Shown here piece after piece: positions 24,410-50,858 of a stretch of DNA of 64,000 bases. A program made the translations under genes and the position numbers. The stretch lies in NCBI GenBank assembly GCA_016841245.1, contig JAENZN010000001.1, positions 62,001 to 126,000 on the forward strand, read 5' to 3'. Source of the DNA: Syntrophomonas sp. (GTDB lineage Bacteria; Bacillota; Syntrophomonadia; Syntrophomonadales; Syntrophomonadaceae). The notes below the pieces were generated by a model, which was given only the letters and a program-made list of their open reading frames with translations, was not told the origin of the DNA and made no database searches. Positions within the stretch are counted from its first letter, which is position 1. Each line of letters starts with the position of its first letter.

Positions 24410-25645
24410 ATGAATGATAATCAAGGAGAGAAGATAAGTAATAATACAGGCCTGGAAATTTTTACCTTGGGCCAATTTGTGGTGCGCCGGGGAAGCGATA
24501 TAATTTCGGGCGAAAATAAACGCTCCTATCGGATATGGGAACTATGCAAATACTTTATTACTAAACGAGATAAACCTACTTACTCGGAAACCATAATGGA
24601 GGATTTGTGGCCTGATCGTGATTATTCTGATTCAAAACAGGCTCTTCGAACTCAGATATATCGGCTGCGCATGCTTTTGGATCAGAAGAACACTCCTGAA
24701 GAATACTCCTGTATCGCCTTTTCCGGTGGCGCTTATGCTTTCAATAAAAATATCAGCTACCGGTTGGATGCCCAGGAATTTGAAGTTTTATATAATGAAG
24801 CTGTCCATATCACTCATAAAGACCCGAATTCGGCTATAGAGAAATACAAAAAGGCAGCCAGCCTCTATAAAGGAGATTATCTTCCGGAAATTTCTTATGC
24901 CGAATGGGTCATTCCGGTGAGAAATTATTATAATCATCTCTATATACAGCTAGTGTTGGATCTAACCTCCCTTCTGCACGATCAGAGTAGAAACGAGGAA
25001 ATTATCGAAGTCCTGGAGAATGCCTTTCTTATTGAGTTTTTTGAGGAAGAATTCCACTTCCGATATCTAAGAGCATTGATTGCAGCCGGTCGACAGAGGC
25101 AGGCCCAATCTCATTATGAATATACATCATCAGTTTTTTACCGGGAGATGGGCATAGAAATGTCGTCCTCTATGCGAGACTTATATAGAAATATTTTATT
25201 TCAAAACAATTCTGTCAATCGCGACCTCCATCTGGTTCAAAACAGCCTCTATGAAGTCCCTGAATCAGACGGTGCCTTTCTCTGTACCAGTGATGTTTTT
25301 CGCTATCTGTACAATCTGGAAGTACGGCGCAATGAACGTACTGGTCAGTCAGTTTTTCTGGGTATGCTTACCCTGAGCTGGCCATCCTCAGAGAACGAGG
25401 ATCTGGTCGGGATGAAAAATGATATGCACTGCCTGGAGGAAACCCTCTTAAACAGCCTGCGCAAAGGAGATGTAGTCTGCCGCTGGAATGAATCGCAGTA
25501 CCTTATTCTCCTGCCCGAGATAGCCCTGGAAAACACTGATCTGGTAATGCGTCGGATCAAATTTAATTTCCGTCGTTTTGCAAATAATCAGCAGGTGGAT
25601 ATCACTACCAGTGTAAAACCAGTACAGCCAGGAAGCATTATATAA
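24410..25645 (+). CDS. SARP/BTAD-type activator with degenerate GGDEF-like C-terminal domain (cassette 1)
   Basis: A 411-residue regulator. N-terminal OmpR-like winged helix (about 15-110, with LWPDRDYSDSKQALRTQIYRLR), bacterial transcriptional activation (BTAD) TPR domain (about 120-265, YKGDYLPEISYAEWVIPVRN), then a C-terminal domain matching the latter part of GGDEF cyclases (SLRKGDVVCRW then NESQYLILLPE) in which the GGDEF signature is replaced by WNESQY. This is the architecture of Streptomyces antibiotic regulators with an added sensor-like tail. The ATG at 24410 follows AGAGGT. A paralogue at 28779 has the same build. The likely targets are the following small gene and surface protein. 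Confidence 0.85.
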   Translation: MNDNQGEKISNNTGLEIFTLGQFVVRRGSDIISGENKRSYRIWELCKYFITKRDKPTYSETIMEDLWPDRDYSDSKQALRTQIYRLRMLLDQKNTPEEYSCIAFSGGAYAFNKNISYRLDAQEFEVLYNEAVHITHKDPNSAIEKYKKAASLYKGDYLPEISYAEWVIPVRNYYNHLYIQLVLDLTSLLHDQSRNEEIIEVLENAFLIEFFEEEFHFRYLRALIAAGRQRQAQSHYEYTSSVFYREMGIEMSSSMRDLYRNILFQNNSVNRDLHLVQNSLYEVPESDGAFLCTSDVFRYLYNLEVRRNERTGQSVFLGMLTLSWPSSENEDLVGMKNDMHCLEETLLNSLRKGDVVCRWNESQYLILLPEIALENTDLVMRRIKFNFRRFANNQQVDITTSVKPVQPGSII

Positions 25646-25792
25646 ATACCTCTGCCTTCCCATTACCACCCCCCACCACTATTATTATTTTGTGTTCCCG
25701 GTTAGAAGGACAAGTATGCCTTACGCTGAAGTTCACAGCTTAGGAAAATATATCATAATTAATTAGCAAAATTAACTAGGTTATCTTATTCC

Positions 25793-25825
25793 TGTGACTG
25801 AGTTGTTACTCACACCTGTTATGAT
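25793..25825 (+). promoter_or_regulatory. SARP-type promoter of cassette 1
   Basis: Direct repeats GTGACTG (25794-25800) and GTTACTC (25805-25811) have an 11-bp period. Exactly 8 bp after the second comes TATGAT (25820-25825), a good -10 hexamer. This is the layout known for SARP activators. The 14-mer TGTGACTGAGTTGT is identical in the cassette 2 promoter at 30116. Confidence 0.7.
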
Positions 25826-25889
25826 TAATCCAGTTTAATGACTGAAGGTTTTTGCAGCAATAAACAAACCCGAAAGGAGGGACTTTTAT

Positions 25890-25910
25890 ATGGAATGTAT
25901 TTTCCATTAG
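25890..25910 (+). CDS. Possible seven-codon leader ORF with strong ribosome site
   Basis: AAAGGAGGG at 25873-25881 is followed 8 bases later by ATG and the peptide MECIFH, then TAG. The stretch also forms a small palindrome (ATGGAA...TTCCAT). It lies in the predicted 265-nt leader of cassette 1, between the SARP-type promoter and the TWQG gene. Cassette 2 has no equivalent. It could be a leader peptide, a ribosome standby site or chance. Confidence 0.3.
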   Translation: MECIFH

Positions 25911-26096
25911 TTATTCCTGCAAAGACTAGTCAATTCAGAGTAAAGATTATAATAAATCTTATCAAGGAAATGTACAAATAATCCAGTTAAAAACAGACAC
26001 CGGGTTTCCGAAGATTCCTGGAGATATGTTTTTATCCCCTAACGCGGTTTGGGAAGGAAGCTGTTTTTGTACTGGAGCATGGAGGAGGTAAGCAGC

Positions 26097-26333
26097 ATGG
26101 CAAGTGAAAACCCATCTGCTCAACCTAATGGAACCACATTTTTGGTACGGGTGCAGTTCCGGCAGAATGCAACCTGGCAGGGGCGCATTGAGTGGCTGGA
26201 GGGGAAAAAAACCAGACCTTTTCGCAGCCTGTTAGAGATGAGTCAGCTGATGCAAGAAGCCTGGGAAGAAACTCAGGGCATTCAACCCGGCCAGGAATTT
26301 GCCAGCTGGAACGAAAAAGACGAGGTTTCTTGA
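26097..26333 (+). CDS. Small TWQG-motif protein (cassette 1)
   Basis: A 78-residue protein of unknown function. Its core (FRQNATWQGRIEWLEG, then FRSLLEMSQLMQEA) is nearly the same in the paralogue at 30283, while the N-terminal tail differs. No signal peptide or membrane segment is present; the core looks like a beta hairpin plus amphipathic helix. The ATG at 26097 follows GGAGGAGGT. It is the first real gene after the SARP-type promoter and sits 113 bp before the surface protein, so the two are probably cotranscribed. A chaperone, regulator or export role is possible but not shown. Confidence 0.8.
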   Translation: MASENPSAQPNGTTFLVRVQFRQNATWQGRIEWLEGKKTRPFRSLLEMSQLMQEAWEETQGIQPGQEFASWNEKDEVS

Positions 26334-26446
26334 GGGAAACCATATTAAGACGTTTATCAGAACAACAATCATTAGAGAACCATCACAGATAGAGAAAAAG
26401 TTTGATAAACATTAGGAACAATTTTTTGAATAGGAGGTCAATTTAT

Positions 26447-28483
26447 ATGAAAAGAATCAAGACATCAGGGAAAATTTCCCTGATGGCAGTATTTCTGATC
26501 CTTTCCCTGTTGATAACGTCAAGTCTGGTTTTTGCACAACCGGAAAGTGGAAATGAATATCAAGGAATGATTTTTAGTGCCGATGCTTCTACAGACGATT
26601 ATACGAACGCCATTTTCGTTGAGAAAGAGGTCATAAGTGGTGAACCTGAGGGGGTCGCATCCTATAAGATATCTCTTTCCACCCAGGACGGCTCTGAAAT
26701 TGATTCTATATATCTTGCTGACGGAGAGAAGGGTGAGTTCAGTGATTTAGATGGTAAAACAACTTACGTGCTGGAAGAAACCGCTCTTTTTGACGGTTCT
26801 GATGACCAGAGCCTGCCCGGCAACCTCAGCATATCATATAGCGGTGACATAGATTCATCAAGCCATAAAGTTATTGCTGATTGGGGAGGCCCAACTTACC
26901 TGTACTGTCACATTACCAATGCTGGAAGCACGGTAAAGGATTATGTTTATGATAATCCAAAATGGGAGTTATGGTATAACGCCAGCGGGTATGCGGAAGA
27001 TGGAGATATAATTTATTCATCAGCCCTTACCGATGATCAACTGCAAGATCTCTACGGGACAGACGTGATAGAAGGCCAGACTACTATCACCGTAAGCGCC
27101 TGGGATCTATATGATGCCGGGTATAGTCTGGCTGCGGGTGATTACGTCTTCAGAATAGAACAACCTCAGGGTTATTCTGAAAGCTACTGCTGGTCTGATG
27201 ATACTACTGCTGAAGGGGAAATCCGCTGTGTAACCGTTAGCAACACCTTTACTCATACTCTTACAATCGTAAAAGAGGTAGTAGGCGAATATGAGGGTGA
27301 TCCGTTTATATTTGCCGTGGGGGGACATGGCGAGAATTCGCTTTCTCCCATCTCTCTTAATAATGGTGAATCTTCTTCTACTCCGGGACTGACGGGCCAG
27401 AGATTTGTCTCAGAGGCCAGTGACGGGGATGCTGACCGAACCACGTATGCAGTTAACGGTGAACCGGTAAAGCCTAAAGATGGCCATGTTTGTGTCGATT
27501 TGACCAATGAGGACCAAACTGTCAAAGTTACCAACTATTTTTATGAAGACAATCAGTTGATTGTGGAGAAGAAAATAGGCAGCGGAACCTCAACCCGGGA
27601 ATATTACACAGTTGAACTGCAGAAGTGGGTATGTCCCTATATATTAAGTTTTCAATCAATCAAAGTCGCAGCTGCCGAGCCTATTACCGGTCAATGCAGT
27701 TGGCAGCCTGTATACAGCTTTGAAATAGCCGTTAGCGATCCCTGGATGATGCCTTTATCAGATCTAATTGCATCCTATGGCTCAGGTCAATACAGGGTGG
27801 TTGAGACCGGAACCAATGACATATCGAAATGGAAGTCCCTGAGCTACAGCTTAAATGGCAATGGTGTCAGTGAAGCCAGCTTTTATTTGAATTCAGATGC
27901 TGCAGTTGTAATTAATGATGAAATCATCGATGGTCCCACTACTGTTGAAATCACCAATAATTTCAAAACCGGCGGAAGCAATGGTGGTGACACCTGGCCG
28001 AAAGTGACTATTGAAAAAGAAATCGGTGAAGGTACTGCCACTCAGGACAGTTTTACTGTCGAGCTGCAAAAAGATAATGATGGTGATTGGGATGTAGTAA
28101 AAACTATTACCGTGACCCCTGATGAAGAAGTTACTGTCTATATGCAGCAATATGGCGCAGGCACCTATCGGGTAGTGGAAGTTGACACTGATGAAATCGA
28201 CAAATTCGATTCCCTATCCTATTCTACCAGCGGCGACACCGGTGATGAGGAAAATGAATTTGAGGTAGTTAAGAATGGCCGCAATTCCTCGGTGGTAATA
28301 ACCAATAACTTTGAAGAAGAACAGGAAGAGGAAGTTGTTCCCGAAATAACTGAACCGGCGGCACCAGTAGTCGTTCCCGAACCAGCTCCTGAACTGCCCA
28401 AGACTGGTGCAGCTCCGATAGCAGCAGGACTGGGACTTATTCTGGCAGCAGGCGGACTGGCAATCAGAAGAATCAAGAAATAA
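26447..28483 (+). CDS. LPKTG-anchored multi-domain CnaB/SpaA-like surface protein (cassette 1)
   Basis: A 678-residue secreted protein: N-terminal signal peptide (KRIKTSGKISLMAVFLILSL... to VFA), several prealbumin-like CnaB-type domains, and a C-terminal sorting signal ELPKTG followed by a hydrophobic stretch and RRIKK. Domains have the K/E/N pattern that forms internal isopeptide bonds: Lys in VEKKIG or IEKEIG strands, Glu in YRVVE, Asn in VTNNF or ITNNF. A sortase would anchor it to peptidoglycan; the one at 33825 is the obvious candidate. AGGAGG precedes the ATG at 26447. No pilin YPKN-type motif was seen, so adhesin or stalk is more likely than a classical pilus backbone. Confidence 0.9.
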   Translation: MKRIKTSGKISLMAVFLILSLLITSSLVFAQPESGNEYQGMIFSADASTDDYTNAIFVEKEVISGEPEGVASYKISLSTQDGSEIDSIYLADGEKGEFSDLDGKTTYVLEETALFDGSDDQSLPGNLSISYSGDIDSSSHKVIADWGGPTYLYCHITNAGSTVKDYVYDNPKWELWYNASGYAEDGDIIYSSALTDDQLQDLYGTDVIEGQTTITVSAWDLYDAGYSLAAGDYVFRIEQPQGYSESYCWSDDTTAEGEIRCVTVSNTFTHTLTIVKEVVGEYEGDPFIFAVGGHGENSLSPISLNNGESSSTPGLTGQRFVSEASDGDADRTTYAVNGEPVKPKDGHVCVDLTNEDQTVKVTNYFYEDNQLIVEKKIGSGTSTREYYTVELQKWVCPYILSFQSIKVAAAEPITGQCSWQPVYSFEIAVSDPWMMPLSDLIASYGSGQYRVVETGTNDISKWKSLSYSLNGNGVSEASFYLNSDAAVVINDEIIDGPTTVEITNNFKTGGSNGGDTWPKVTIEKEIGEGTATQDSFTVELQKDNDGDWDVVKTITVTPDEEVTVYMQQYGAGTYRVVEVDTDEIDKFDSLSYSTSGDTGDEENEFEVVKNGRNSSVVITNNFEEEQEEEVVPEITEPAAPVVVPEPAPELPKTGAAPIAAGLGLILAAGGLAIRRIKK

Positions 28484-28529
28484 TATTACTTATAATTAAG
28501 ACGGATTAAGCACACATCTGATCACCTGC

Positions 28530-28563
28530 AAAGAGGCTGTCCCCAAGGGATGGCCTCTTTTTT
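28530..28563 (+). terminator. Rho-independent terminator of cassette 1
   Basis: Stem AAAGAGGCTGTCCCC/GGATGGCCTCTTT with a short loop and a following T-run, 47 bp past the surface-protein stop. The bases before it (TGATCACCTG) recur before the cassette 2 terminator. Confidence 0.88.
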
Positions 28564-28778
28564 AAGAACGCGGAGACAGGAACCTGTGCAGGTGTCCCGT
28601 CTATACTTTTGCCGCTAAGCAAGGTTTTTAATGTATACCAGACCTAAATTTTCCTTTATCTTTAACAAATTTATGTCATTCTATGCTAAAATATAGCAGA
28701 ATTATTTATGTTATTTTTTTCTCGTCTTCATTTAATCCCCTCCAATAACTGTAGTATCTCGTTTGGAGTTGATAATTA

Positions 28779-30008
28779 GTGAACAGCATTTATCCCATTT
28801 ACAACAATATTGAGGAGAATACTCTGGTAATATCCACTCTGGGTCAATTTGTTATCCGCAGAGGAGATAGAATTATCTCATTCGAGGCTAAACGCTCCTA
28901 CAAACTATGGGAATTTTTCAAATTCATCATCAGCAATCGCGGTCGAGATGTGCATGGAGATACCATAATCGAAAGTCTGTGGCCGGAGCAGGACTATAAC
29001 GACAGCCGAAATTCCTTGCATTCTATGATATATCGCCTGAGACAGCTTATCGATAATAACTCTAATAATACCACTGGTGAATCCTCAATCATATTTTCTG
29101 CCGGAACTTACTCCTGGAACGAAAATACTGACTGCTGGCTGGACTCAGTTTATTTTGAGAAGCTATATGAAACTGCCCGGCACATCAGCAGCAGTGACCC
29201 GATACAGGCGATAGACTTATATACGAAAGCCATAGACATGTACCGGGGCGATTACCTGCCGGAACTCATGTACACCGAGTGGACCATCCCTTTAAGAAAT
29301 TACTATCACCGGCTCTATGTAAGTGCAGTTCAGGAACTGATCAGCCTTCTCGAAAATGCTGGCAGTTATGAGAAAATTATTGAAGTGTGTGAAAAGGCGA
29401 TCCAACTGGAGTTTTATAAGGAAGAAATCCATGCTGCTTATCTTTTCGCCCTCATAAAAACTGGCAGTATTACCCAGGCCCGTTCTCATCTGGAATATGC
29501 ATCTTCGGTTTTTCAACAAGAAATGGGCATCGATCTAAAAAGTATTATGCCTAAAGTATCACTGCTACCCGAAATCGAGAATAACGATATCGACCCGGAC
29601 CTGGCAGTCATACAGCAGCATCTGGATAAATACATTGAACCTCCAGGATGTATGCTGTGCACTCCCGAAGTTTTTCGTTTTTTATATAAAACTGAATTAA
29701 GGCGTTCGGAACGCAGCGGTCAACCGGTATTTCTTGCTATGTTTGTCCTGGAACTGGATTCCAGTAATAAAGCAGTTGATCCCAGGGAATGTATGAACCT
29801 GCTTCATCGTACCCTGACTATAAACCTGCGCCGTGGTGATGTGGTTTGCCCCTGGAACGATCAGCAGTACCTGCTCCTGTTAACCGGTCTGAATGCCGAC
29901 CAGGCTGTCAAAGCTATTAATCGTATCCAAAAGTCATTTGAATCTAACTGTAAATTGCCTGCTAAACTTATAAATGAAATTAAGCCCATCATCTTGACCA
30001 ATCTTTAG
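28779..30008 (+). CDS. SARP/BTAD-type activator with degenerate GGDEF-like C-terminal domain (cassette 2)
   Basis: A 409-residue paralogue of the regulator at 24410 with the same three parts: winged helix (LWPEQDYNDSRNSLHSMIYRLR), BTAD TPR domain (YRGDYLPELMYTEWTIPLRN) and a degenerate cyclase-like tail (LRRGDVVCPW then NDQQYLLLLT), where the GGDEF position reads WNDQQY. The start is GTG at 28779 with GGAG 10 bases before. It has its own unit after the cassette 1 terminator. The paralogues differ enough to suggest an old duplication with separate signals. Confidence 0.85.
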   Translation: MNSIYPIYNNIEENTLVISTLGQFVIRRGDRIISFEAKRSYKLWEFFKFIISNRGRDVHGDTIIESLWPEQDYNDSRNSLHSMIYRLRQLIDNNSNNTTGESSIIFSAGTYSWNENTDCWLDSVYFEKLYETARHISSSDPIQAIDLYTKAIDMYRGDYLPELMYTEWTIPLRNYYHRLYVSAVQELISLLENAGSYEKIIEVCEKAIQLEFYKEEIHAAYLFALIKTGSITQARSHLEYASSVFQQEMGIDLKSIMPKVSLLPEIENNDIDPDLAVIQQHLDKYIEPPGCMLCTPEVFRFLYKTELRRSERSGQPVFLAMFVLELDSSNKAVDPRECMNLLHRTLTINLRRGDVVCPWNDQQYLLLLTGLNADQAVKAINRIQKSFESNCKLPAKLINEIKPIILTNL

Positions 30009-30115
30009 TAAAAATTCATCTCTTCAAGATTTTTTCCTCTTTTTTTGCATATTTTCCCTCTGGTTAGCTTTTGTTTCTAATGCTTTTGGTCTATTTTTCT
30101 AAAATTACACATACT

Positions 30116-30148
30116 TGTGACTGAGTTGTGATTCCTTCCATATATACT
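30116..30148 (+). promoter_or_regulatory. SARP-type promoter of cassette 2
   Basis: Direct repeats GTGACTG (30117-30123) and GTGATTC (30128-30134) have an 11-bp period. Exactly 8 bp after the second follows TATACT (30143-30148). The layout is the same as at 25793. Confidence 0.72.
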
Positions 30149-30282
30149 TATAGTTAGTTAAGGCTCCTTTGAATCAGGTTCTTTCATCTTAAAGTAATGG
30201 CCGAGGAATGGTATTAAAAGCTTAACAGGTTCAAGAGCTAATTATTACCTAATCCAGTACCTAGGCCATAGGGAGGTGTGCG

Positions 30283-30513
30283 ATGGACAAAGATGAAATG
30301 TCTCTTAGCCAGGAATCAACATTCCTAATTAAGGTATACTTCCGCCAGAACAATACCTGGCAAGGTAGAATCGAATGGCTGGAAGGCGGACAAAGCATAT
30401 CATTCAGGAGTCTTCTCGAGATGTTGACACTTATGCGAGAAGCCAGTGAAACATCAGCGTTCCCAGGGGAAACGAACTTCAGACAATGGACAGATAAAGA
30501 AGATGTCTCCTAA
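30283..30513 (+). CDS. Small TWQG-motif protein (cassette 2)
   Basis: A 76-residue paralogue of the protein at 26097: STFLIKVYFRQN, TWQGRIEWLEGG, FRSLLEMLTLMREA, ending in DKEDVS like the EKDEVS end of the first copy. GGGAGGTG precedes the ATG. It ends 38 bp before the next surface-protein gene. Family not recognised; the strict pairing with LPKTG genes suggests a role in their expression, export or assembly. Confidence 0.82.
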   Translation: MDKDEMSLSQESTFLIKVYFRQNNTWQGRIEWLEGGQSISFRSLLEMLTLMREASETSAFPGETNFRQWTDKEDVS

Positions 30514-30551
30514 TATTGGGACAAAAAATATTTTTGCTAGGAGGTCGATTT

Positions 30552-33500
30552 ATGAAGAGGATAAAAAAGTCCAGCAGGTTTTCGCTGCTCGCAGTATTTT
30601 TGATCCTTTCCCTGTTGTTAACATCTAGTTTTGTTTTTGCAGGAGATAATAGCGGCAATCAAACTGGAGTGTCTTTTAAAATTGATACCGGAGGCAATGT
30701 TGAATATGCTGGTTCATTAACTGTTAAGAAAGTTGTTGAAGGTAATGAACCTGCTGGTATCGATTCCTATAAGATGCATCTTACCGGCCCTGATTGTGAT
30801 GAATCCTTTTATCTTGTTGATGGTGATGACCTAGAATTTAAGAATCTAAATGGGACTTACATTGTCGAAGAAACTTATGTCTTTGATGGTTCTGATGATC
30901 AACCCCTGCCCGGTAATCTCACCACAACATACGAAGTTGATGGCGTAGCTGGTAATTCTGCTACTGTCACCCCTGGAGTAATCGCACTAACATGCGATAT
31001 TACCAACACGGGAAGCAGCTACAAGATAAGCGTGAATGACTATGTATATAGGGTAGAAACCGGTTATTTGGATCAATGGGGTGACCCATATGAGTATCCC
31101 CAATGGGAATTATATTATAAGGGTGATGCAAACCCGATTTATTCTGATACCCTTACATATTCTCAGTTAGATGAGTTATGGAACAATGGAAATACTACTA
31201 TCAGAGTAACTGCTGAACAACTATCCAATGAAGGATTTACATTGAAAACAGGCGACTACTATTTTATTGTAAACCAAGTTTCAGATCATCCGCCCCAGGG
31301 TGCTTCTTGTCAAAGTAATGACATAACCGTAGATTCGGTAGGCAGCTCAGCCACGCTTACAGTAACCAACACCTTTACTAAGGTAGAAACCGCCTCACTG
31401 AAGGTTATTAAGGAAATCGCCGAGGGCTCGGCAGAACTCCCAACGAATACGGATGCTTTCCAATTCAACCTTAAGCAAAAGGTTGGGGATGGTTGGGTTC
31501 TATATCCCGATGAAAACTCGAATCCTTATAGTATCGCCTACCCCACTCCCGGTTATTATGAATTCGCTGAACTTCCGGTAGGTACCTATAAAGTAGAGGA
31601 GATCACAACTGGTTTAACAGGTTTGGTGAGCGGTTATCCGATATATTCACCCGATGATGAAATCACGCTGGCAAAAGATGAAGCCGGGGAAATTACCATC
31701 ACCAACAAATTTGAAACCGGGAATGCTTATCTGCAAATAGAAAAATACCGTGATCCGGAAGATACTACAGTTGCATTCCCGCAGAATGAGTTCAAATACT
31801 ATTTGTACGAACAAGATGCAGCTGACCCTGATCAATGGAACCTCATTGATGAAGATTACATCAACAGTACCGGACCTGTCTTTAATACTCCTCTAGAAGT
31901 TACACCTGGAGTCAAATACAGAGTTTTTGAAGATATTCCAGAATTATGGAATAACTGGTTTAATGTAGATGGAGCGTCGTCTCCTAAGGATGTATATTCA
32001 GATGGTTATGGATGGGGAGTCGAATTTACTGTTCCTGAACCGAGCGATAATAATCCAAATGTTCTAGTAACCGTAGAAATTACCAACATCGATCCAGGAT
32101 GGCTTATCGTTAGCAAAGCATGTACCGGAACCGGTATTCCTGAAAACGGTGTTTACCAGTTCTACCTGTATGCATGGGATTATTTAACTCAAGCATACGT
32201 TCTTTACAGCCAGACACCTTATGAATTAAATTCAGCTAATAATTACCAGATAACTATACCAGTACAGTTTGAAACCTGTTACAAAGTAATTGAAATCACA
32301 CCACCTGGTTCACCTGCCTATGATACCTGGAAATCTGTTTACTACAGCGGCGGTGATGGCATTGATTATAATGAAGCCCAGAATATCATGAGCCATGGTG
32401 ATTTACAAGAAATAACTATAACTAATATTTTCGAAGAAAACTGTGGCAATGAAGTTAAAATAACAAAATATCTTACAGAATCATCCAGTTCTGCAACTCA
32501 GAATTCTTTCGAAGTAGAACTGCTGAAATTGGAAGATGGGAATTGGGAGACATATACTGGTAATGGTGTTGATACTAACCCCTTTAATATCCAAATCGGA
32601 GAAACAGTAACCCTGACCAACCTGGATTTGGGAGAATACAAGGTAGTAGAAAATGATGACTCATATTTGAAGTATATCTATGTTAACAATGTAAAGACAA
32701 ATGAGTTTGCCATTGATACAACTGAAGGAATACATGGAAATTCAGCTGATAACGATGGTATACAGAGAATCGAAGTCGAAATCTATAATGAGTTTGAAAA
32801 AGATACCCCAGGTGATGATCCCGAATTGATTATCAAGAAGAAAATCGGCAGCGGAAACTCAACTCAGAACGATTATACGGTTGAGATTCAGAAATGGAAC
32901 GATAATTCTTCAGAATGGGAAACTCAGGTAACTTATACTGACTTGTCTGTAAGCAATCCTATCAGCATTGAGCTGAGCGACTTAATCATCAAATATGGCG
33001 AAGGGGAATATCGAGTTGTTGAAACAGATACCGACAGCATCAGCAAATGGAAATCCTTCAGCTATACTGTTGATGGTGATGCTACTGGGGTAGATTATGC
33101 ACCTTTCGATGTTGACGAGGATAGTGAAGATGATATTACAGTTGTAGTTACCAATAATTTCAAGACTAGTCACGGCGGTGGTGATGACTCCTGGCCCATA
33201 TTGACTATTGAAAAAATAGTTAAAGGAGATACCACTGAAGACAGTTTCACTGTTGAACTGCTGGAGAAAGATGGCGATGATTGGGATGTTGCAGATACTT
33301 TTACTATAGAAGATGGTGAAACACTCACCATTGATATGGAGGACTACGGTGCAGGCACCTACATGGTCGTTGAAGACACTGATGAAATCGATGACAAAAA
33401 CTTTGAATCAGTTTCTTACAAAGTTACCGGTGATACTACTGACGATGAATTTGATGTAGTTAAGAATGGCAGGAGCTCTAAAGTAGTAGTAACCAACAAC

Positions 33501-33668
33501 TTTGAAGAAGAAGAGGAAGTTATTATCAAAGGGGCTGAACCTGCAGAACCAGTAATCATTCCTGAGCCGGCTCCTGAACTACCCAAGACCGGTGCAGCAC
33601 CGATCGCAGCAGGATTGGGTCTGTTACTGGCAGCAAGCGGATTGGCACTTAGGAGAAATAGAAAATAA
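30552..33668 (+). CDS. LPKTG-anchored multi-domain CnaB/SpaA-like surface protein (cassette 2)
   Basis: A 1038-residue secreted protein, larger than its cassette 1 paralogue through extra CnaB-type repeats. Signal peptide (FSLLAVFLILSLLLTSSFVFA), about eight prealbumin-like modules with Lys-Glu-Asn isopeptide patterns (KKVVEG, IKEIAEG, KKIGSG, EKIVKG; YKVEE, YKVVE, YRVVE; VTNTF, ITNKF, VTNNF), and sorting signal ELPKTGAAPIAAG plus RRNRK. The sorting region is almost identical to the first copy, so one sortase can serve both. AGGAGG precedes the ATG at 30552; an in-frame ATG at 30516 is upstream of the ribosome site. The sortase gene follows after the terminator. Confidence 0.9.
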   Translation: MKRIKKSSRFSLLAVFLILSLLLTSSFVFAGDNSGNQTGVSFKIDTGGNVEYAGSLTVKKVVEGNEPAGIDSYKMHLTGPDCDESFYLVDGDDLEFKNLNGTYIVEETYVFDGSDDQPLPGNLTTTYEVDGVAGNSATVTPGVIALTCDITNTGSSYKISVNDYVYRVETGYLDQWGDPYEYPQWELYYKGDANPIYSDTLTYSQLDELWNNGNTTIRVTAEQLSNEGFTLKTGDYYFIVNQVSDHPPQGASCQSNDITVDSVGSSATLTVTNTFTKVETASLKVIKEIAEGSAELPTNTDAFQFNLKQKVGDGWVLYPDENSNPYSIAYPTPGYYEFAELPVGTYKVEEITTGLTGLVSGYPIYSPDDEITLAKDEAGEITITNKFETGNAYLQIEKYRDPEDTTVAFPQNEFKYYLYEQDAADPDQWNLIDEDYINSTGPVFNTPLEVTPGVKYRVFEDIPELWNNWFNVDGASSPKDVYSDGYGWGVEFTVPEPSDNNPNVLVTVEITNIDPGWLIVSKACTGTGIPENGVYQFYLYAWDYLTQAYVLYSQTPYELNSANNYQITIPVQFETCYKVIEITPPGSPAYDTWKSVYYSGGDGIDYNEAQNIMSHGDLQEITITNIFEENCGNEVKITKYLTESSSSATQNSFEVELLKLEDGNWETYTGNGVDTNPFNIQIGETVTLTNLDLGEYKVVENDDSYLKYIYVNNVKTNEFAIDTTEGIHGNSADNDGIQRIEVEIYNEFEKDTPGDDPELIIKKKIGSGNSTQNDYTVEIQKWNDNSSEWETQVTYTDLSVSNPISIELSDLIIKYGEGEYRVVETDTDSISKWKSFSYTVDGDATGVDYAPFDVDEDSEDDITVVVTNNFKTSHGGGDDSWPILTIEKIVKGDTTEDSFTVELLEKDGDDWDVADTFTIEDGETLTIDMEDYGAGTYMVVEDTDEIDDKNFESVSYKVTGDTTDDEFDVVKNGRSSKVVVTNNFEEEEEVIIKGAEPAEPVIIPEPAPELPKTGAAPIAAGLGLLLAASGLALRRNRK

Positions 33669-33710
33669 TACTTTTAGCAAAGCCAGGTTAATTAATACCT
33701 GATCACCTGA

Positions 33711-33750
33711 AACAGCAGGGTTTAACTTCCCTGCTGTTTTTATTTGTTTT
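33711..33750 (+). terminator. Rho-independent terminator of cassette 2
   Basis: Stem AACAGCAGGG/CCCTGCTGTT with an 8-nt loop and TTTATTTGTTTTT. It lies 42 bp past the surface-protein stop. Confidence 0.9.
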
Positions 33751-33824
33751 TATCTTGCTATGATAGCCGTCTATTTGCGACAATAGAAAGTGTATCTACT
33801 AATTATTTATAGAGGAGAATAGAT

Positions 33825-34535
33825 ATGGAAGAATCTAATATTCCAACGATTCCCAAAAAGCGAATATTGATATCGGTTTTAGCCGCTTTATTGATATTGG
33901 GCGGTATAACACTGGCCGCCTTCCCTTACCTGCAGAGTCTATATTATGATGTAATAAAAGCACCTGATGCTGTAGAGGAAGTTGTTGATACTAATGATGT
34001 CACAGATATGGATACGATCGAAAATACAGATAATGAACCAACTGAAGTCGTTGAGCCTGCTGCTAATGACAGTTCCTCCGGTAAGCCCTCAGGCGCTAAC
34101 ACTACCGCTTCTACTTATGGAGGACAAGGAACACTGCCGGTGGATTCTACCGGAGTACTTGAGATACCTAAATTGGGATTAAAATTAGATGTGCTGTATG
34201 GGGTTTCTGCAGCGGTTTTAAAGCAGGGTATTGGCTTCTACCCGCAGAGCGATGATCCCAGCACCGGTAATGTGTGCATTGCCGGTCATCGCAATGCCTA
34301 TGGTTCTCCCTTCTGGCACCTGGACAAATTGATGCCCGGTGATTCTATTATCCTATATTACAACAATAACTCTTATAATTATAATGTTGCCTTAAACTAT
34401 ATTACCGATAATAAGGACTGGAGTATAATAGACCCTACCGATAAGCCTGCTATTACATTAACTACCTGTGACCCCAAAATAAGACCCGCAAACGGTATAT
34501 ACAACCGTCTGATTATAAGAGGCTATATAGATTAG
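33825..34535 (+). CDS. Sortase with TLTTC active site (for the LPKTG proteins)
   Basis: A 236-residue membrane-anchored transpeptidase. N-terminal membrane segment (ILISVLAALLILGGITLAA), an acidic linker of about 75 residues, then a sortase domain with catalytic His in IAGHRNAYGSPFWHL, catalytic Cys in TLTTC and the downstream arginine (NRLIIRG). It cleaves LPXTG between T and G and links the protein to cell-wall precursor. The class is likely D/E; I cannot settle it from sequence alone. AGAGGAGAA precedes the ATG. A type C repeat starts 4 bases past its stop. Confidence 0.92.
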   Translation: MEESNIPTIPKKRILISVLAALLILGGITLAAFPYLQSLYYDVIKAPDAVEEVVDTNDVTDMDTIENTDNEPTEVVEPAANDSSSGKPSGANTTASTYGGQGTLPVDSTGVLEIPKLGLKLDVLYGVSAAVLKQGIGFYPQSDDPSTGNVCIAGHRNAYGSPFWHLDKLMPGDSIILYYNNNSYNYNVALNYITDNKDWSIIDPTDKPAITLTTCDPKIRPANGIYNRLIIRGYID

Positions 34536-43704: not shown

Positions 43705-44298
43705 TTAATTATCAGTCAGCAGGCGGGCTCGTACTATCTGACGGACAGAGCGTCCATCCTGGTGGCAGGTAGTCAGGGTCAGGGCTGCATATCCACAGGG
43801 TTCAATCACGCTCCAGTCATTGTTCTCCACGGTATACAGCTCTTCCACTTCGTATTCATAGACTTCATCATCATAGGAAAGAAAAATCTTATCTCCCGGT
43901 TGCAATTCCGCCAGGTGGAGAAAAGGGTTTCCATACATATTGCGATGTCCTGCAATAGCCGTATTGCCTTCGCCCGGGAGTGCTGATTCCGTATATCGCC
44001 CCGGTGATATGGCCAGCAGATCCAGGGAAGTTCCTTCCTGTACCGGAACAGATAAATCTATGGCTGGGATTTCCAGCAGCGCTCCATCAAAAACAGCAGT
44101 GCCCGATGACACATCAGTATCATCGGGCGGTATATTTATATCCTCGCTATTTACGATCTGCTCTTTCAGGTCATCCTGTTCATACCAGGCATAAAAATCT
44201 GTCAGCAACGGGTAAAGTACTAAGCTTACGCCTGCTATTATTATCAGGGTACTCCAGCGGTTTAGTTTTAATAAAGTTCTTCTTTTCTTTCTGGCCAT
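43705..44298 (-). CDS. Sortase with TLTTC active site (for the LPITG protein)
   Basis: A 197-residue sortase: membrane anchor (LNRWSTLIIIAGVSLVLYPLL), linker, catalytic domain with IAGHRNMYGNPFLHL (His), TLTTC (Cys) and RQIVRARL (Arg). The ATG at 44298 (MARKKRR) lies 7 bases after the stop of the LPITG gene, its likely substrate, with AGGAAAT in front. It is similar to the sortase at 33825 (shared DWSVI-P motif before the active Cys), so the two loci may exchange substrates. Confidence 0.92.
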   Translation of the reverse strand: MARKKRRTLLKLNRWSTLIIIAGVSLVLYPLLTDFYAWYEQDDLKEQIVNSEDINIPPDDTDVSSGTAVFDGALLEIPAIDLSVPVQEGTSLDLLAISPGRYTESALPGEGNTAIAGHRNMYGNPFLHLAELQPGDKIFLSYDDEVYEYEVEELYTVENNDWSVIEPCGYAALTLTTCHQDGRSVRQIVRARLLTDN

Positions 44299-44305
44299 AT
44301 AACAC

Positions 44306-45079
44306 TTATTTCCTGCGGCGTTTAAACATAATTCCCAGTCCGCCCAGAGCAGCACCTGAACCAATAAACATCATTATATTACCGCCAGTAATAGGCAGTT
44401 CTGGAAGTTTTATCGGCAAACTAATACCTTCGGGCTCCGGTGGCGTTATTTCCTCAGGGTCAGTGGTTGGATTATCTTCTGGTTCTATTACTAATTCTTC
44501 TTCATCTGAGCTTCTCCTTGAACTGCTGCTACCGCCACCGCCACCTGAACTATGGCTTTCGTCTTGCCGGGCCTCTATTACAATACTAAAATTATAAGTA
44601 GTGGCTTGCTGAGCTGACTGCAAAACACGAGTAATAAGCACTACATCCATACTGCTGTCTTTGGACAAAGTAAGCTCATCGCCAACAAGTTCATCCCCAT
44701 CAGTATCTCTAAGACTTACCAGAATACAATCAGGTTTATCCTCCACTCTAACAGAGGTGATTTTCACCGGATTTTTGGTAACATTAATTATCCTGGTATT
44801 GATATTAGCTTGATAACCCGGATAAGCATTGTCAATAGCACATGTTATAGTACCAGCAGTAACCTCAACGATATCCAAACTGCCAATATCCATAACACCA
44901 TCGCTATTTGGATTACCCGGGTCCATAGAATCTAACTTATTATCATCGGGGTCATCGTTTGATTCACAATAGTCTTGGTCCCATTCAATTAAGTTTTTCG
45001 CAGTATCTGCATAAACAGTACCCACCATCATGTAAGAAAAAATCATAATCAAGCATAAAACGTATCCAAGCTTTCTCAA
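44306..45079 (-). CDS. LPITG-anchored TasA/camelysin-like surface protein
   Basis: A 257-residue secreted protein: signal peptide (LGYVLCLIMIFSYMMVGTVYA), a beta-rich domain, an SSGGGGGSSSSRRSS linker, a Pro/Glu-rich segment, then sorting signal ELPITGG, hydrophobic stretch and KRRRK. The beta domain shares DPGNPN, YPGYQ and TRVLQ-A-Q blocks with the protein at 48020, so it is a wall-anchored paralogue of that SipW-type fibre protein. The start is most likely TTG at 45079, after AAAGGGGGAAG; an ATG at 45112 precedes this ribosome site. Confidence 0.8.
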   Translation of the reverse strand: MRKLGYVLCLIMIFSYMMVGTVYADTAKNLIEWDQDYCESNDDPDDNKLDSMDPGNPNSDGVMDIGSLDIVEVTAGTITCAIDNAYPGYQANINTRIINVTKNPVKITSVRVEDKPDCILVSLRDTDGDELVGDELTLSKDSSMDVVLITRVLQSAQQATTYNFSIVIEARQDESHSSGGGGGSSSSRRSSDEEELVIEPEDNPTTDPEEITPPEPEGISLPIKLPELPITGGNIMMFIGSGAALGGLGIMFKRRRK

Positions 45080-45259
45080 GTACACTTCCCCCTTTCCGTC
45101 TTTCATATTCATCTACGATTTTATGTAACTGAGAAATAACCTCTCCGTTATGGTCTTGCTAAGATAATCCACCTATACTATAATAATATAGCACTTAAAG
45201 CAAATTATAACTACGCACCCGAGTCTAGTGTTTATGTATCCTAGGGATTAAGCTGACAT

Positions 45260-45279
45260 TTACACTAAAGTACCACAAG
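45260..45279 (-). promoter_or_regulatory. Conserved element upstream of the LPITG gene
   Basis: Read on the minus strand, CTTGTGGTACTTTAGTGTAA. It matches CTTATGGCACTAAAGTATAA at 49742 in about 15 of 20 positions, with the central block present as its reverse complement. It lies about 180 bp before the start codon. It is a candidate shared operator, possibly for the response regulator at 50009. Confidence 0.4.
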
Positions 45280-45421
45280 CTTTCAAAATCCCTTATTTTA
45301 TAGCAGCTGACTTAATAATAGAATACCTTCACCCTTGAAGGAGCAGCTATCTCCTGTTCACTCATCGGCGTCTGCAGATAGATACAGGAATAGAGTATAG
45401 ATCCATACCAGAATTAGCTAC

Positions 45422-46513
45422 TCATTCCCTGCTATCTTTCGATTTGCCTCCCAGGATATAATGGTAAATGATCAATTCACTGATCACGTAGAAGGAATGA
45501 AGCCCCTGCTGATAATCTTCTTCATATAGGATAGGCTGTCCCGCTTCATCGGCCACTTTCAGCAGATCGTCAAAGGACTGCATGGGCAGCATCTTCTCCG
45601 AAGACAAAGCCGGTATGCGCCCCTGACCGACGGCAATCCAATCCCCGTGTTTTTTCATTATCTTTTTCAATTCTTCTTGTACCGGGTCCAGTTTTTTGGC
45701 CGTGGTTTTAAGAAGCATCCCCAGCAGCAGGAGCAGAAATACAACTGCTGCAATAGCATAAACGGTACGCTTATCTTTTACTCCCGGCACCGGGGTAAGC
45801 TGGGTCTCGCTTATATAGTCTTCTTTTTGTTCAGCCAACTGCCCCTCTACCATAAAGGTATTGCCCTCCACCGGGATTATCATGACCGGTGCCATCTCCC
45901 GGGTGATTTCTCCATCCGGGGTGTCAATCTGGGCGGCGACATGAAAAGTAACCTGCAATTGAATCAAATCAGCAGTTAATCTTAATTCTCTGGTCATGTC
46001 ACTTATAAAATCGGCATAAGCGACATAATCCAGCGGGAATTCAGCAGACACCGTAAGTGTACTGTCATCAGCATTGAAGGGGGTGGCAGGTATCAGTATA
46101 TCTTCCTTGCTAAAAAGGGGCACCAGTTCCTTTTCATTATTCTGACTCCCCGGTTTTTCCCGGGTCACATAGCCATTCAAGGCAGCGGTGACCTGGTATT
46201 CCCCGCTTATTTGAGCCTGCTGCTCCCCGTTCATCTGATAGGTAAAGATAGTATCGATATAATCGGTCAAGGAAGTAATATAGGCCCGACCAGATCCGGC
46301 ACTCTCATCAGGAATAAAATCATTCTTCAAAAAATATACCCGGTAGTCTATACCGGTCGCCTGCTTAAAACCATAAAGCGGTACCTGCTGTTCCGTTTCC
46401 GCAGGCTGCTTAAACCACCAGAAGCCCATACCCATTGAAAACAGCAGCAATAATACCAGCACTGCTATTATGCCTTTACGCAGCTTCGGTCTGATTTTTT
46501 TCTTTCTGTTCAT
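45422..46513 (-). CDS. DUF5305-like membrane protein
   Basis: A 363-residue protein with a membrane segment near the N-terminus (GIIAVLVLLLLFSMGMGFWW), a large beta-rich extracellular part with a YRVYFLKNDFIPD start, a second membrane segment near residues 255-275 (AIAAVVFLLLLLGMLL) and a cytoplasmic tail with a small domain. This is the layout of DUF5305 proteins that occur beside SipW-type signal peptidases; the function is unknown, perhaps in assembly of the secreted fibre proteins. The ATG at 46513 follows AAGGGGGCAGG. Confidence 0.7.
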   Translation of the reverse strand: MNRKKKIRPKLRKGIIAVLVLLLLFSMGMGFWWFKQPAETEQQVPLYGFKQATGIDYRVYFLKNDFIPDESAGSGRAYITSLTDYIDTIFTYQMNGEQQAQISGEYQVTAALNGYVTREKPGSQNNEKELVPLFSKEDILIPATPFNADDSTLTVSAEFPLDYVAYADFISDMTRELRLTADLIQLQVTFHVAAQIDTPDGEITREMAPVMIIPVEGNTFMVEGQLAEQKEDYISETQLTPVPGVKDKRTVYAIAAVVFLLLLLGMLLKTTAKKLDPVQEELKKIMKKHGDWIAVGQGRIPALSSEKMLPMQSFDDLLKVADEAGQPILYEEDYQQGLHSFYVISELIIYHYILGGKSKDSRE

Positions 46514-46565
46514 AAACCTGCCCCCTTGGTAATTATTTATGATAAACCGCATGCTCAGGGATATT

Positions 46566-47759
46566 CTAACTGCCCCTCAGCAGAAGAGTTAGCTTGCCAA
46601 GCTGAGGGATAACCATAACCACTTTACCCAGCACATTTTTCTCATAGAGCAGATCGCCCTCCGGATTACTGTTGGCATCTCCCTTGGTAGTAAAATACCT
46701 CTGGCCTGCTTCACCCTCTACCCTCACTATGCGGTGGGTGACTTTCATACTGCCTATTTGGAACATAACTATATCCCCCAGCCTGGCCTGGCTGCCGGGA
46801 ATTTTATGAACAACTACGATATCCCCGATATTCATAACCGGCACCATGCTGCCGCTCACTATTACCCGGGGGCTGTAACTGAATACTCCTACACAGAACC
46901 AGATGATGAGTATGCAAGCTATACTGGTAAAAAACGGGCTAAACATACTCCCTCCTTGATGTGAAGCCCGAGTATGGCCGGCTTCTTCATTATATATCTG
47001 GTAAACCAGGATCATTCCGATGATGGGAGCCAGGGTACCTAGCAGGGTGGTAATGGCCCAGTTGGACTGGGGCAGTACCGGAGACAAGCGCTCCACAGCC
47101 AGCATACTGCCCCGGTAAATGACCGCCGGGATCGGCCCGCCCAGGAAAGCCAGCAGTGTGGCCAGCAAGTTCTGGACCAGTCCGGGGAAAATATTGGTGC
47201 CTAAAAACTCGGTCATGGCCTTGGCCCCATGAAGATTGGTCAGTTTATTCAGAGGCAGGGAGTAAATCATATAAAACAAGGCTACCACCGGAATACCCAG
47301 CCGGGGCCGTTTGGCAAAAAACCGATTGAGCAGCCAGGAGCGTGTGAATTCCACAGCTAATAGGCTGCTGCCCAAGGTCAGAATATTTATTGTTATCCCT
47401 ACCAGGCTGTGATCGTAGGGACTCTGCCCGAAGCCGCCCATGAATCCCTGTACCATTATAAACAGCAGACCTATGAAAACGCAGAGCAGGGCCAGCCAGC
47501 GCACCAAGCGCTTTGATCTCAAGCTTCCGGCGTTTTTCACCCCGGGCAAGTAAAAGGTAAAAGCGAAAAGCAGCAGCCACATAAGGGATGGATAAATATA
47601 GTTGCCGGATAAACCTCCTACCCGGGGCCCAAATACCAGGTTATCCATCAGAAAGGCTGCTATTATCAAAAATAACAGAATAAGAGGATAAGATATAGAT
47701 TTTCTGTCTTCTAATAGCTTGACTCCGATCCCGGAAATATTGATCCCTCCCACAGTCAA
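46566..47759 (-). CDS. SipW/ER-type signal peptidase I with multi-pass N-terminal region
   Basis: 397 residues: about eight membrane segments (1-280) followed by a signal peptidase I domain with catalytic Ser in SGSMVPVMNIGD and His in KVTHRIVRV in place of the bacterial Lys, the hallmark of ER/archaeal-type enzymes such as Bacillus SipW. A final hydrophobic segment closes it. It should process the two fibre-like proteins encoded just upstream (48020, 48972). The long membrane N-terminus is unlike SipW itself. The start is uncertain: TTG at 47759 or GTG at 47753. Confidence 0.88.
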   Translation of the reverse strand: MTVGGINISGIGVKLLEDRKSISYPLILLFLIIAAFLMDNLVFGPRVGGLSGNYIYPSLMWLLLFAFTFYLPGVKNAGSLRSKRLVRWLALLCVFIGLLFIMVQGFMGGFGQSPYDHSLVGITINILTLGSSLLAVEFTRSWLLNRFFAKRPRLGIPVVALFYMIYSLPLNKLTNLHGAKAMTEFLGTNIFPGLVQNLLATLLAFLGGPIPAVIYRGSMLAVERLSPVLPQSNWAITTLLGTLAPIIGMILVYQIYNEEAGHTRASHQGGSMFSPFFTSIACILIIWFCVGVFSYSPRVIVSGSMVPVMNIGDIVVVHKIPGSQARLGDIVMFQIGSMKVTHRIVRVEGEAGQRYFTTKGDANSNPEGDLLYEKNVLGKVVMVIPQLGKLTLLLRGS

Positions 47760-48019
47760 CCTGACGCCCAGATATAAGATACTGGATGCTCATTCCTAGT
47801 ACGTATTAGACATAAAGTGGTAAATTCCTGCCTGCTTTTCTGATTTGTATCAGCTGTCTCAAAGCCCAGGCAGCTTATCTGGCGATGAGCACAAAAAAGG
47901 CCGCTCATATCAACCACAGCCTTTCAATCCAGATTGCTCATTTTCCCAGCCTATCTCTGGCATCCACAAAAGAGAAACGGGGAGAAGACTCTCCTTCTCC
48001 CCGCTAGCTAACATGTTAT

Positions 48020-48868
48020 TTATATAGTATTGGTGGTATTGTTATAATCTGAATATTTACCTTCATCATTGTTTGTTCCATTATCAGAGTCATACAACGG
48101 GTCTTTTCTATCTTGAGTAATAATCTCACTGGGCAGAATTCCTTGATCACCATTAGGATTTTCATAGATACCGCTGTCCGGAAGTCCGAATTCATTCCAC
48201 TGCTGAGCCTGCAGGGTGATAGTAAAGTCTATATCCGTATCCTGAGGAGCTGCCTGCAGAACCCGGGTATATACTGCTACGGGAATGGTTTCACCGGGAT
48301 CGATCTGATAACCCTGCAAATCTAGTTTGGAGTCATAACCGTCTGCATTGCTCCAAACCATAAAATCTTCACCATCATCTTTGGATCTGGTAGGATCGGC
48401 ATCAAACCAGATTTCTACAATCAGCCAATCGGGGATGTCAAGTGCGTTAATATCAAACTTGGCCGGTACTGTGCCCAGATTCTCAATAGTCGCGAAAACG
48501 CGATCCTGATAACCGGGATAGCCGTTGCCAAGGGTAATATTTAACTGGTCAAGATCGGAATCTATATCACTACCACCATCATCTACGATCTCGGCGTCCA
48601 GGTAACCGACATTTTTAGCATTGTTGGGATTACCGGGGTCTAATTCATCCAATCCTTCATTGCCTTCGGTAACACCATATACATCTCCATCATACCCTTC
48701 GTAATTCGGGCTTGGATCAGGCACTTGTAATGTGTTCCACTCTAAATCCAGATAACCGGTAGAAACTGTTTCATCGACCACCAGATCGTCATACCACATG
48801 GCATAAGCTCCGCCCAGGGCGGCAAAGGCAAATACCATTACCAACGCCAAAACTTTCATCTTTTTCAT
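48020..48868 (-). CDS. TasA/camelysin-like secreted fibre protein (SipW-type substrate)
   Basis: A 282-residue secreted protein. Signal peptide KVLALVMVFAFAALGGAYA followed directly by MWYDDL, the W-x-D type mature start seen in SipW substrates. The mature part is acidic and beta-rich, with DPGNPN, GNGYPGYQDRVFATIENLG and YTRVLQAAPQ blocks, as in TasA/CalY proteins and shared with the LPITG protein at 44306. There is no sorting signal. It would form a matrix fibre or sheath. A poly-A/G ribosome site (AAAGGAGGAAAAAAA) precedes the ATG. Confidence 0.82.
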   Translation of the reverse strand: MKKMKVLALVMVFAFAALGGAYAMWYDDLVVDETVSTGYLDLEWNTLQVPDPSPNYEGYDGDVYGVTEGNEGLDELDPGNPNNAKNVGYLDAEIVDDGGSDIDSDLDQLNITLGNGYPGYQDRVFATIENLGTVPAKFDINALDIPDWLIVEIWFDADPTRSKDDGEDFMVWSNADGYDSKLDLQGYQIDPGETIPVAVYTRVLQAAPQDTDIDFTITLQAQQWNEFGLPDSGIYENPNGDQGILPSEIITQDRKDPLYDSDNGTNNDEGKYSDYNNTTNTI

Positions 48869-48971
48869 TTTTTTTCCTCCTTTTTAACTTTACAAAATTT
48901 TATATAGCTTTTTAAATCTATCACCAGCGGATCTGTAGTAATTACAGTTAGGCCGCGTGGTTGCAAGTTAG

Positions 48972-49547
48972 TTAGTAATTCATGTCTCCATCAATGTGCA
49001 GAGTTTCACTCCAATTACTTGTACTACCATCATTCCAGGGTACAAATTTGATATATCCATCAAATGTACGGTCTTTACTTTTAAGTGCTTTTATCTCCAC
49101 TTGAACACTGCCAGTCACTGATGCACCCGGATCAATAACAGTCCCATCCTGCGGTTCAACCAAATATTCATATACGTCTGTATTTTTCATGCTGAATGTA
49201 CTGTCTTCTAATTTAACAGGAATGGTTCCATTGTTGGTAATTGTAAAGTCAGTCTGCCAGACAGACCAAAGCCAGCCTTTATCAACATCTACAACCAGAG
49301 TATTGTCATTATCAGTAATTTCAGTGTCAATACCACCAGACCCACAACAATCCCCACTACTACCAGAGACTTTAAACCCGGAACTAGCAGTAAAGTCGAT
49401 GTCCACATATCCGGTATCCACATCTTCATTGATACACAGGGTGTCTCCCCATAGAGCCATCGCAGATCCTATCAAGCCCATGCCCGCTACAACGGCAACG
49501 ACAATCATCAATAACGGCCATCTGCTGTTTTTGTTCTTATATCTCAA
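48972..49547 (-). CDS. Second SipW-type secreted surface protein
   Basis: 191 residues. Signal segment WPLLMIVVAVVAGMGLIGSAMA followed by LWGDTL, parallel to AMWYDDL in the next gene. The mature domain is beta-rich (TDFTITNNGTIPVKLEDS, a common camelysin/TasA motif) with a CC pair in GDCCGSGG. It lies 100 bp upstream of the 48020 gene, so both are likely in one unit with the peptidase. Possibly a minor subunit or initiator of the fibre. Confidence 0.75.
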   Translation of the reverse strand: MRYKNKNSRWPLLMIVVAVVAGMGLIGSAMALWGDTLCINEDVDTGYVDIDFTASSGFKVSGSSGDCCGSGGIDTEITDNDNTLVVDVDKGWLWSVWQTDFTITNNGTIPVKLEDSTFSMKNTDVYEYLVEPQDGTVIDPGASVTGSVQVEIKALKSKDRTFDGYIKFVPWNDGSTSNWSETLHIDGDMNY

Positions 49548-50641: not shown

Positions 50642-50800
50642 ATTAATTCCCCTCCTTGCCTCTCTTATCTCTTCGAGAATGATGTATCTCATGATGTTTC
50701 CTTTTCTAAAGTTATCTTAATAAGTTGGAGTTACAATTCGATCACAAATGGCAAAACCAACCATATTTCTTGGTAAATGGACATTTTAGCTTATAATTAA

Positions 50801-50858
50801 CATCACTAGAGGATGATCATCAATGAATACCAACTTTATAAAAATCCCCCTCCTGGTC
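50801..50858 (-). pseudogene. Ghost copy of the response-regulator 5' end
   Basis: Minus strand, after AGGAGGGGG, a frame reads KLVFIDDHPLV and then stops after a few unrelated codons. It aligns over about 58 bp (roughly 80 percent identity by eye, including a 14-bp identical block GGATGATCATCAAT on the plus strand) with the true start of the response regulator at 50601-50660, ribosome site included. It overlaps the last codons of the kinase gene, where a coupled regulator start would be expected. Confidence 0.65.

Follow-up and report, generated by a model that had tools for sequence, protein, structure and literature searches.

Tandem regulator, small-protein and surface-protein modules

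A 64,000-nucleotide stretch of a Syntrophomonas sp. genome (contig JAENZN010000001.1, positions 62,001 to 126,000; hereafter the window, whose numbering is used below unless another locus is named) carries on its plus strand two tandem modules. Each comprises genes for a SARP-type regulator, a small protein with a TWQG core and a large LPKTG surface protein, and the pair is followed by a sortase gene. All evidence is computational, and the domain make-up, gene order, operator, spacing and distribution described here are observed by computation. An earlier note, made from the sequence alone, had proposed this gene order at roughly these coordinates, and all seven genes are indeed open reading frames (ORFs) among which Pfam recognizes the BTAD and Sortase domains. 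The likely ATG starts at 24410, 26097, 26447, 30283 and 30552 are preceded, where visible, by a GGAGG-like ribosome site.

In module 1, regulator 1 (24410..25645, plus; ORF from GTG 24365, likely ATG at 24410) is followed by the 78-aa TWQG small protein 1 (26097..26333, plus), which has no Pfam or NCBIfam model, and by LPKTG surface protein 1 (26447..28483, plus), which carries a signal peptide. The module ends in a terminator hairpin (about 28530..28560, plus; fold z −4.5) with a T run after it. Module 2 comprises regulator 2 (28779..30008, plus), the 76-aa TWQG small protein 2 (30283..30513, plus) and LPKTG surface protein 2 (30552..33668, plus). A second terminator hairpin (33709..33740, plus; 12 pairs, fold z −5.3) separates it from the sortase (33825..34535, plus), which matches Pfam Sortase at 9e-28 and for which the best models are class E and class D, each below its cut-off. 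The two hairpins make it probable that module 1, module 2 and the sortase gene are transcribed separately, and the sortase gene may lie outside the module 2 transcript.

The modules are 46% (SARP), 56% (TWQG) and 53% (LPKTG, over 317 aa) identical pairwise and are therefore truly paralogous, bearing out the earlier suggestion that a whole module was duplicated and then diverged. Regulators 1 and 2 are sisters, with support of 100/97, in a tree built from 43 SARP-GGDEF proteins (the domain make-up is set out below). Each has its own orthologue in two further Syntrophomonas genomes, so that the regulator duplication is older than the split of the three Syntrophomonas species. The source genome has exactly two SARP-GGDEF regulators and two sortases in total. 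A relative, G007, shows a separate duplication of its own regulator in the same tree; there, at locus L031 (5188-11594), recent independent tandem SARP copies, 86% identical, flank a TWQG-LPQTG-sortase set, and a 267-aa SARP-like piece lies between the duplicated SARP genes.

Both regulators match Pfam BTAD above the cut-off (1.7e-17 for regulator 1, 1.8e-14 for regulator 2), with a partial winged helix and, in regulator 1, a weak GGDEF match. A profile built from 18 family members matches AfsR at 5.4e-15 across the winged-helix and BTA domains and EmbR at 6.5e-10, and its C-terminal part matches diguanylate cyclases and GGDEF domains at about 1e-7 (best 7e-8). The AlphaFold 2 (AF2) model of the regulator (predicted local distance difference test, pLDDT, 85) resembles AfsR most closely (TMt 0.77), followed by GGDEF folds (TMt up to about 0.65). 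Pfam, profile and fold thus agree on the SARP layout, an N-terminal OmpR-type winged helix with the BTA domain next. Where diguanylate cyclases have the GG[DE]EF active-site signature, nearly all of the 18 aligned regulators show R-[FYW]-[SN]-x-[ST]-Q-[FYL] instead, and the Gln is invariant. Because the signature is replaced, catalysis by this domain is unlikely. Large SARPs have additional domains at the C terminus, and by comparison with these the degenerate GGDEF domain would probably serve as a signal input or oligomerization part.

LPKTG1 and LPKTG2 both end in the LPKTG motif, a hydrophobic stretch and a basic tail, and with their signal peptides qualify by sequence as sortase-anchored surface proteins; in TIGR01167, one scores at the cut-off and the other just below it. 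They had been called isopeptide-type. Repeated K...E...N strand signatures reminiscent of the isopeptide triad are present, but the Pfam matches to DUF5979 (3.4e-4) and SpaA fall below their cut-offs, so that isopeptide (CnaB/SpaA-type) domains are plausible only.

A direct repeat, often at fixed distance from a −10 box

Ahead of the TWQG operons lies a direct repeat of heptamers, nTGTRAY-N4-nTGTRAY, with a period of 11 bp. In module 1 the putative operator CTGTGACtgagTTGTTAC occupies 25792..25809 (plus) and is followed by a −10 box, TATGAT, at 25820-25825; the module 2 counterpart, TTGTGACtgagTTGTGAT, lies at 30115..30132 (plus) with TATACT at 30143-30148. The form TTGTGAC-TGAG-TTGTGAT is seen in the promoters of the window TWQG genes and at an unlinked locus (L008). 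With at most one mismatch allowed, 3.9 Mb contain three copies of this form, and each copy precedes one of the three TWQG genes. A CRP-type inverted repeat was ruled out, as both half-sites have the same orientation.

The relaxed half-site nTGTRAY, defined on related loci, was afterwards tried on 46 held-out loci of distant families, an operator being called at 11 or more of 12 matches at offset 11. Such a site is present at 19 of 20 related loci and at 28 of the 46 held-out ones. On the held-out loci, each of the other offsets from 8 to 23 was found at no more than 9 of 46, and Markov shuffles reached the threshold at a mean of 0.75 of 46; control genes in the same loci carry the operator in 5 of 351 cases. 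A −10-like TAnnnT stands exactly 10 bp past the second heptamer at 28 of 64 sites, the next best distance accounting for 7. Operator and −10 box together occur 5 times in the source genome against 0 in a reversed control, and 25 times against 3 in 54 family genomes, a total that includes 17 against 0 in the three module-bearing Syntrophomonas genomes. The site is also present where no TWQG gene follows the SARP-GGDEF gene (L164 and L208), indicating that it tracks the regulator.

This arrangement closely parallels that of AfsR from Streptomyces coelicolor (PDB 8HVR, 8K60, 8JKE). The AfsR box consists of two 11-bp repeats from −40 to −19, and the double-stranded part of the scaffold with its −10 box ends at −7 (PMC10936776). 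Counting back from a −10 box taken as −12 to −7, our first repeat begins at about −40 and the second at about −29, so that the two systems share paired 11-bp direct repeats from −40 at equal distance to the −10 box, as well as the winged helix, the BTA domain and the DNA-contacting Arg. They differ in repeat sequence (CGTTYATCG in AfsR, TGTRAY here), in the C-terminal part (NOD-TPR there, a degenerate GGDEF domain here) and in setting, the present regulators being found in Clostridia with surface-protein genes as putative targets. Nothing ties the SARP genes to the sites more strongly than this operator geometry.

Residues that would read the site offer a further hint. In AfsR, Arg92 contacts a base of the repeat, and the SARP-GGDEF family has an invariant Arg at the aligned position; where AfsR has Ser91, most members have Tyr and some have Phe. 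The regulators with Phe that have a recognizable site pair with TGTAAY instead of TGTGAY at four of four loci (Fisher test, about 0.001) and stand on four separate branches of the 43-protein tree. At three of these four loci Ala occupies the position of AfsR Thr88, a residue that contacts repeat position 5, the variable one. There are counter-examples, namely L114 (a weak site with no −10 box) and regulator 1 of genome G003, which has Tyr with TGTAAY, and the pattern was spotted by inspection after the fact in small numbers. It is nevertheless suggestive of covariation between recognition helix and site, of the sort that direct reading of the repeat by the SARP would produce.

From the geometry and the homology to AfsR, we infer that the adjacent SARP binds the operator and activates, a SARP dimer recruiting RNA polymerase. 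A side-by-side pair of SARP domains would bind the two nTGTRAY heptamers 11 bp apart and help the polymerase to start at the −10 box 10 bp past the second heptamer, as AfsR does. Each operon would then make the small cytoplasmic TWQG protein first, followed by secreted, sortase-anchored or fibre-forming proteins. That the two SARP-GGDEF regulators are activators of surface-protein operons through the direct-repeat site is, in our estimate, probable.

Candidate regulon and rival explanations

A search of the window for TGTDAY-N5-TGTDAY returned four sites against 0.22 expected: those of the two TWQG operons, one ahead of an operon for TasA-like proteins, a signal peptidase and sortase 2, and one ahead of a gene for a LuxR-type response regulator. 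Putative operator 3, TTGTAATcgtgGTGTGAC (49939..49956, minus), lies upstream of the TasA-like operon and is kept at the same place in the sister species G001 (L141:11425). Putative operator 4, TTGTGATcgaaTTGTAAC (50730..50747, minus), has the −10 box TAAGAT and lies upstream of the response-regulator gene; beside it, between the kinase and regulator genes at 50790-50840 (minus), is a duplicated fragment resembling a response-regulator start. The genes behind operator 3 form a second surface cluster (43705..49547, minus, assigned with Pfam and NCBIfam; 43705-52706 with the LuxR-type response regulator and a histidine kinase, and including both operator sites). All on the minus strand, it encodes sortase 2 (43705-44364), an LPITG protein (44306-45112), a DUF5305 protein (45422-46552), a SipW/archaeal-type signal peptidase (46566-47759) and two secreted proteins that are TasA-like by sequence only (48020-48868 and 48972-49547).

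Elsewhere in the source genome, a site precedes the unlinked TWQG-LPQTG pair. Further sites lie at an unlinked response-regulator paralogue (G000 C56, G001 C5) and at a secreted protein gene (G003 C2). The second surface cluster likely belongs to the same regulon as the LPKTG modules, which would thus comprise both modules, the unlinked TWQG-LPQTG pair and the second cluster with its TasA-like proteins, signal peptidase and sortase 2. The GGDEF-like C terminus, the putative operators and the second surface cluster (43.7-50.7 kb) go beyond what the earlier note had described.

Comparable neighbourhoods occur in distant relatives. Of 61 TWQG loci, 41 have a SARP gene within 2.6 kb, which in 40 is upstream and in the same orientation, and 37 have a gene for an LPXTG protein, sortase or SipW-type signal peptidase no more than 8 kb away, several of the loci without such neighbours being cut by contig ends. 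A crude in-script rule assigns a signal peptide or transmembrane stretch to the product of the gene directly behind TWQG in 52 of 63 cases, compared with 279 of 649 among control ORFs. The predicted conservation of gene order across Clostridia therefore stands, but an LPKTG gene is not an obligatory third member: in other lineages its place is taken by a signal peptidase with TasA-like proteins, or by giant secreted proteins. Likewise, the proposal that a SARP controls surface proteins in a Clostridium-like anaerobe gains genomic linkage and a shared putative operator, whereas the control itself is something we infer. A role in contact with a syntrophic partner is not favoured by the distribution, as many gut bacteria that are not known as syntrophs, among the Oscillospiraceae, Ruminococcaceae and Lachnospiraceae, have the system.

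PhoB-type sites are 7-bp direct repeats with 4-bp spacers. Response regulators of the OmpR/PhoB type recognize 11-bp direct repeats like this one, so that the site alone names no protein; furthermore, PhoP and AfsR share a site in Streptomyces (PMC10972967). This is one of several points that weigh against SARP-driven activation. Eighteen of the 46 distant loci have no clear site, several of them with a divergent recognition helix, and TGTGAY and TGTAAY are mixed in some Syntrophomonas promoters. Operator 4 was not found conserved in G001. Finally, a site at locus L130, TGTAACTCATTTGTAA(T/C), with a −10 box is present in three species (G000 C18:180784-180816, and also G001 C16 and G003 C22) with no obvious gene behind it; a small RNA or a repeat element is a possible explanation of this conserved site. 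Were another winged-helix regulator of the OmpR/PhoB/PhoP type to bind the repeats, the adjacent SARP would be regulated with, or would regulate, something else. Against this, site and SARP travel together over many families, the source-genome sites with a −10 box lie at surface and regulator genes, with none at phosphate genes among those inspected, and the pairing of Phe regulators with TGTAAY sites, for all its exceptions, recurs on separate branches. We consider binding by such a regulator unlikely.

That the operator is a target of the TWQG protein rather than of the SARP, which would make TWQG a small autoregulator with DNA-binding activity, appears very improbable. TWQG is the first gene past the site in most operons and its predicted β-β-β-α shape is compatible with nucleic-acid binding, but its model has no confident fold match, and sites stand before surface genes without TWQG (the TasA-like operon and LPKTG2 of G001) and in a genome without detected TWQG (G194). 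Least probable of all is a chance neighbourhood, or an inherited gene order without regulatory meaning. Homologues do occur apart, SARP-GGDEF being present without detected TWQG in 22 sampled genomes, but gene order and site are retained across distant families despite diverged proteins, and the held-out operator test largely refutes this explanation. Moreover, SARP-GGDEF genes without detected TWQG often still adjoin TasA-like/signal peptidase clusters (L201, L202 and L208) or an IPQTG protein and sortase (L205). At a further locus, L212 (G328), a SARP-GGDEF gene (7181-8350, minus) is followed by curli-like repeat proteins (NQTAVVNQTGDDN...).

Neighbours and site-bearing genes are mainly surface proteins, sortases, signal peptidases and regulators, and, with no search aimed at secondary-metabolite clusters, the role of SARP-GGDEF proteins looks unlike the activation of secondary metabolism. 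SARP-type regulators are best known for switching on antibiotic genes in Streptomyces. A 2024 review regards the SARP family as specific to the genus Streptomyces and presents its members as secondary-metabolism regulators (PMC10972967). The distinct SARP-GGDEF branch found here, which about 52 of the 398 genomes from across the phylum carry, is common in Clostridia and points instead at surface proteins and extracellular fibres; the branch as a whole seems to regulate surface and matrix, with TWQG as companion in part of it. Among known SARPs with an extra C-terminal domain, EmbR of Mycobacterium tuberculosis (PDB 2FEZ) carries a phosphopeptide-binding FHA domain and has other targets. The nearest functional precedent that we found is GSU1771 of Geobacter sulfurreducens, which, in the available part of its description, is SARP-type, lies outside Actinobacteria and affects biofilm genes; it has a receiver domain rather than GGDEF, and that part describes no TWQG gene or sortase cassette (PMC10599522). 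The SARP domain and the operator type are thus already known. For SARP-GGDEF proteins with putative surface targets in Clostridia and for the TWQG family, we found no description in the open-access literature (subscription journals not covered). The operator offers a simple means of predicting surface regulons in gut and anaerobic bacteria.

The TWQG small-protein family

TWQG proteins are about 65-100 aa long. Neither the window proteins, searched against Pfam, NCBIfam and PHROG, nor 25 family members searched against Pfam gave a significant match. TWQG was found in 36 of the 398 genomes: 30 have TWQG with a full-length SARP-GGDEF protein, 6 TWQG alone, 22 SARP-GGDEF alone and 340 neither (Fisher test, 3e-25), in a table for which two match lists were compared by hand and contig-edge fragments were counted as SARP-GGDEF. 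Family counts vary with thresholds and incomplete assemblies, and the 24 named loci were found with a single protein as query and hence are biased to close relatives. Carriers include Marasmitruncus massiliensis, Merdimmobilis hominis and Anaerovorax sp., and such named strains make the system testable; the family itself, widespread and without a model, is a ready target for small-protein work.

Genomes may hold several copies: the source genome has three TWQG genes, and G003 has five of the TWQG type. Genes of a related TFQG/DLQG type are found next to TWQG or, in Oscillospiraceae, apparently fused to encode double proteins of 150-190 aa. Ahead of TWQG1 in the window lies a decayed second small-protein gene of the TFQG type (25880..26046, plus), recognized by eye in the three-frame translation as SYQGNVQIIQ with stops, for which the tblastn match did not reach E 1. 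The same gene is partly decayed in G001 and intact in G003 (L029:17301-17549, minus).

The AF2 model of TWQG2 predicts a β-β-β-α fold at moderate confidence (pLDDT 70.6). Structural relatives were rejected as too weak: the best Foldseek match has E 0.5, and the best VIA match (Z 4.6) is an uncharacterized Thermus protein, followed by release factors and double-stranded RNA-binding domains. Matches of single members to TnpW, SiaC and CCP_MauG are at chance level. A defence-system reading was set aside, as PADLOC gave no match.

Since surface operons tend to carry their own TWQG copy each, we weakly favour a role tied to the product of the operon, such as feedback or export assistance, over that of a single global regulator. 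One such role, possible yet rather unlikely, is that of a new kind of small regulatory partner. Produced ahead of the other proteins of every SARP-driven surface operon, it would attach to the inactive GGDEF domain of the regulator and signal back on the synthesis or export of surface proteins; one regulator could then govern several surface structures with a feedback element per operon. SiaC-SiaD of Pseudomonas aeruginosa (PDB 7E6G) similarly combines a GGDEF protein with a small partner, and its GGDEF part matches the regulator. In contrast to the regulators here, however, SiaD is a diguanylate cyclase with an intact signature region, and SiaC, with a single chance-level match, does not appear to be a relative of TWQG.

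A search for TWQG on plasmids found none, and a phage search returned TWQG-like sequences in two faecal phage records without annotation, with identities of about 40% across 42-47 residues. Next to the module-associated sortase, the window also holds a 78-aa coiled-coil-like ORF (34747-34983, minus), and a similar ORF is at the same place in G001 and G003.

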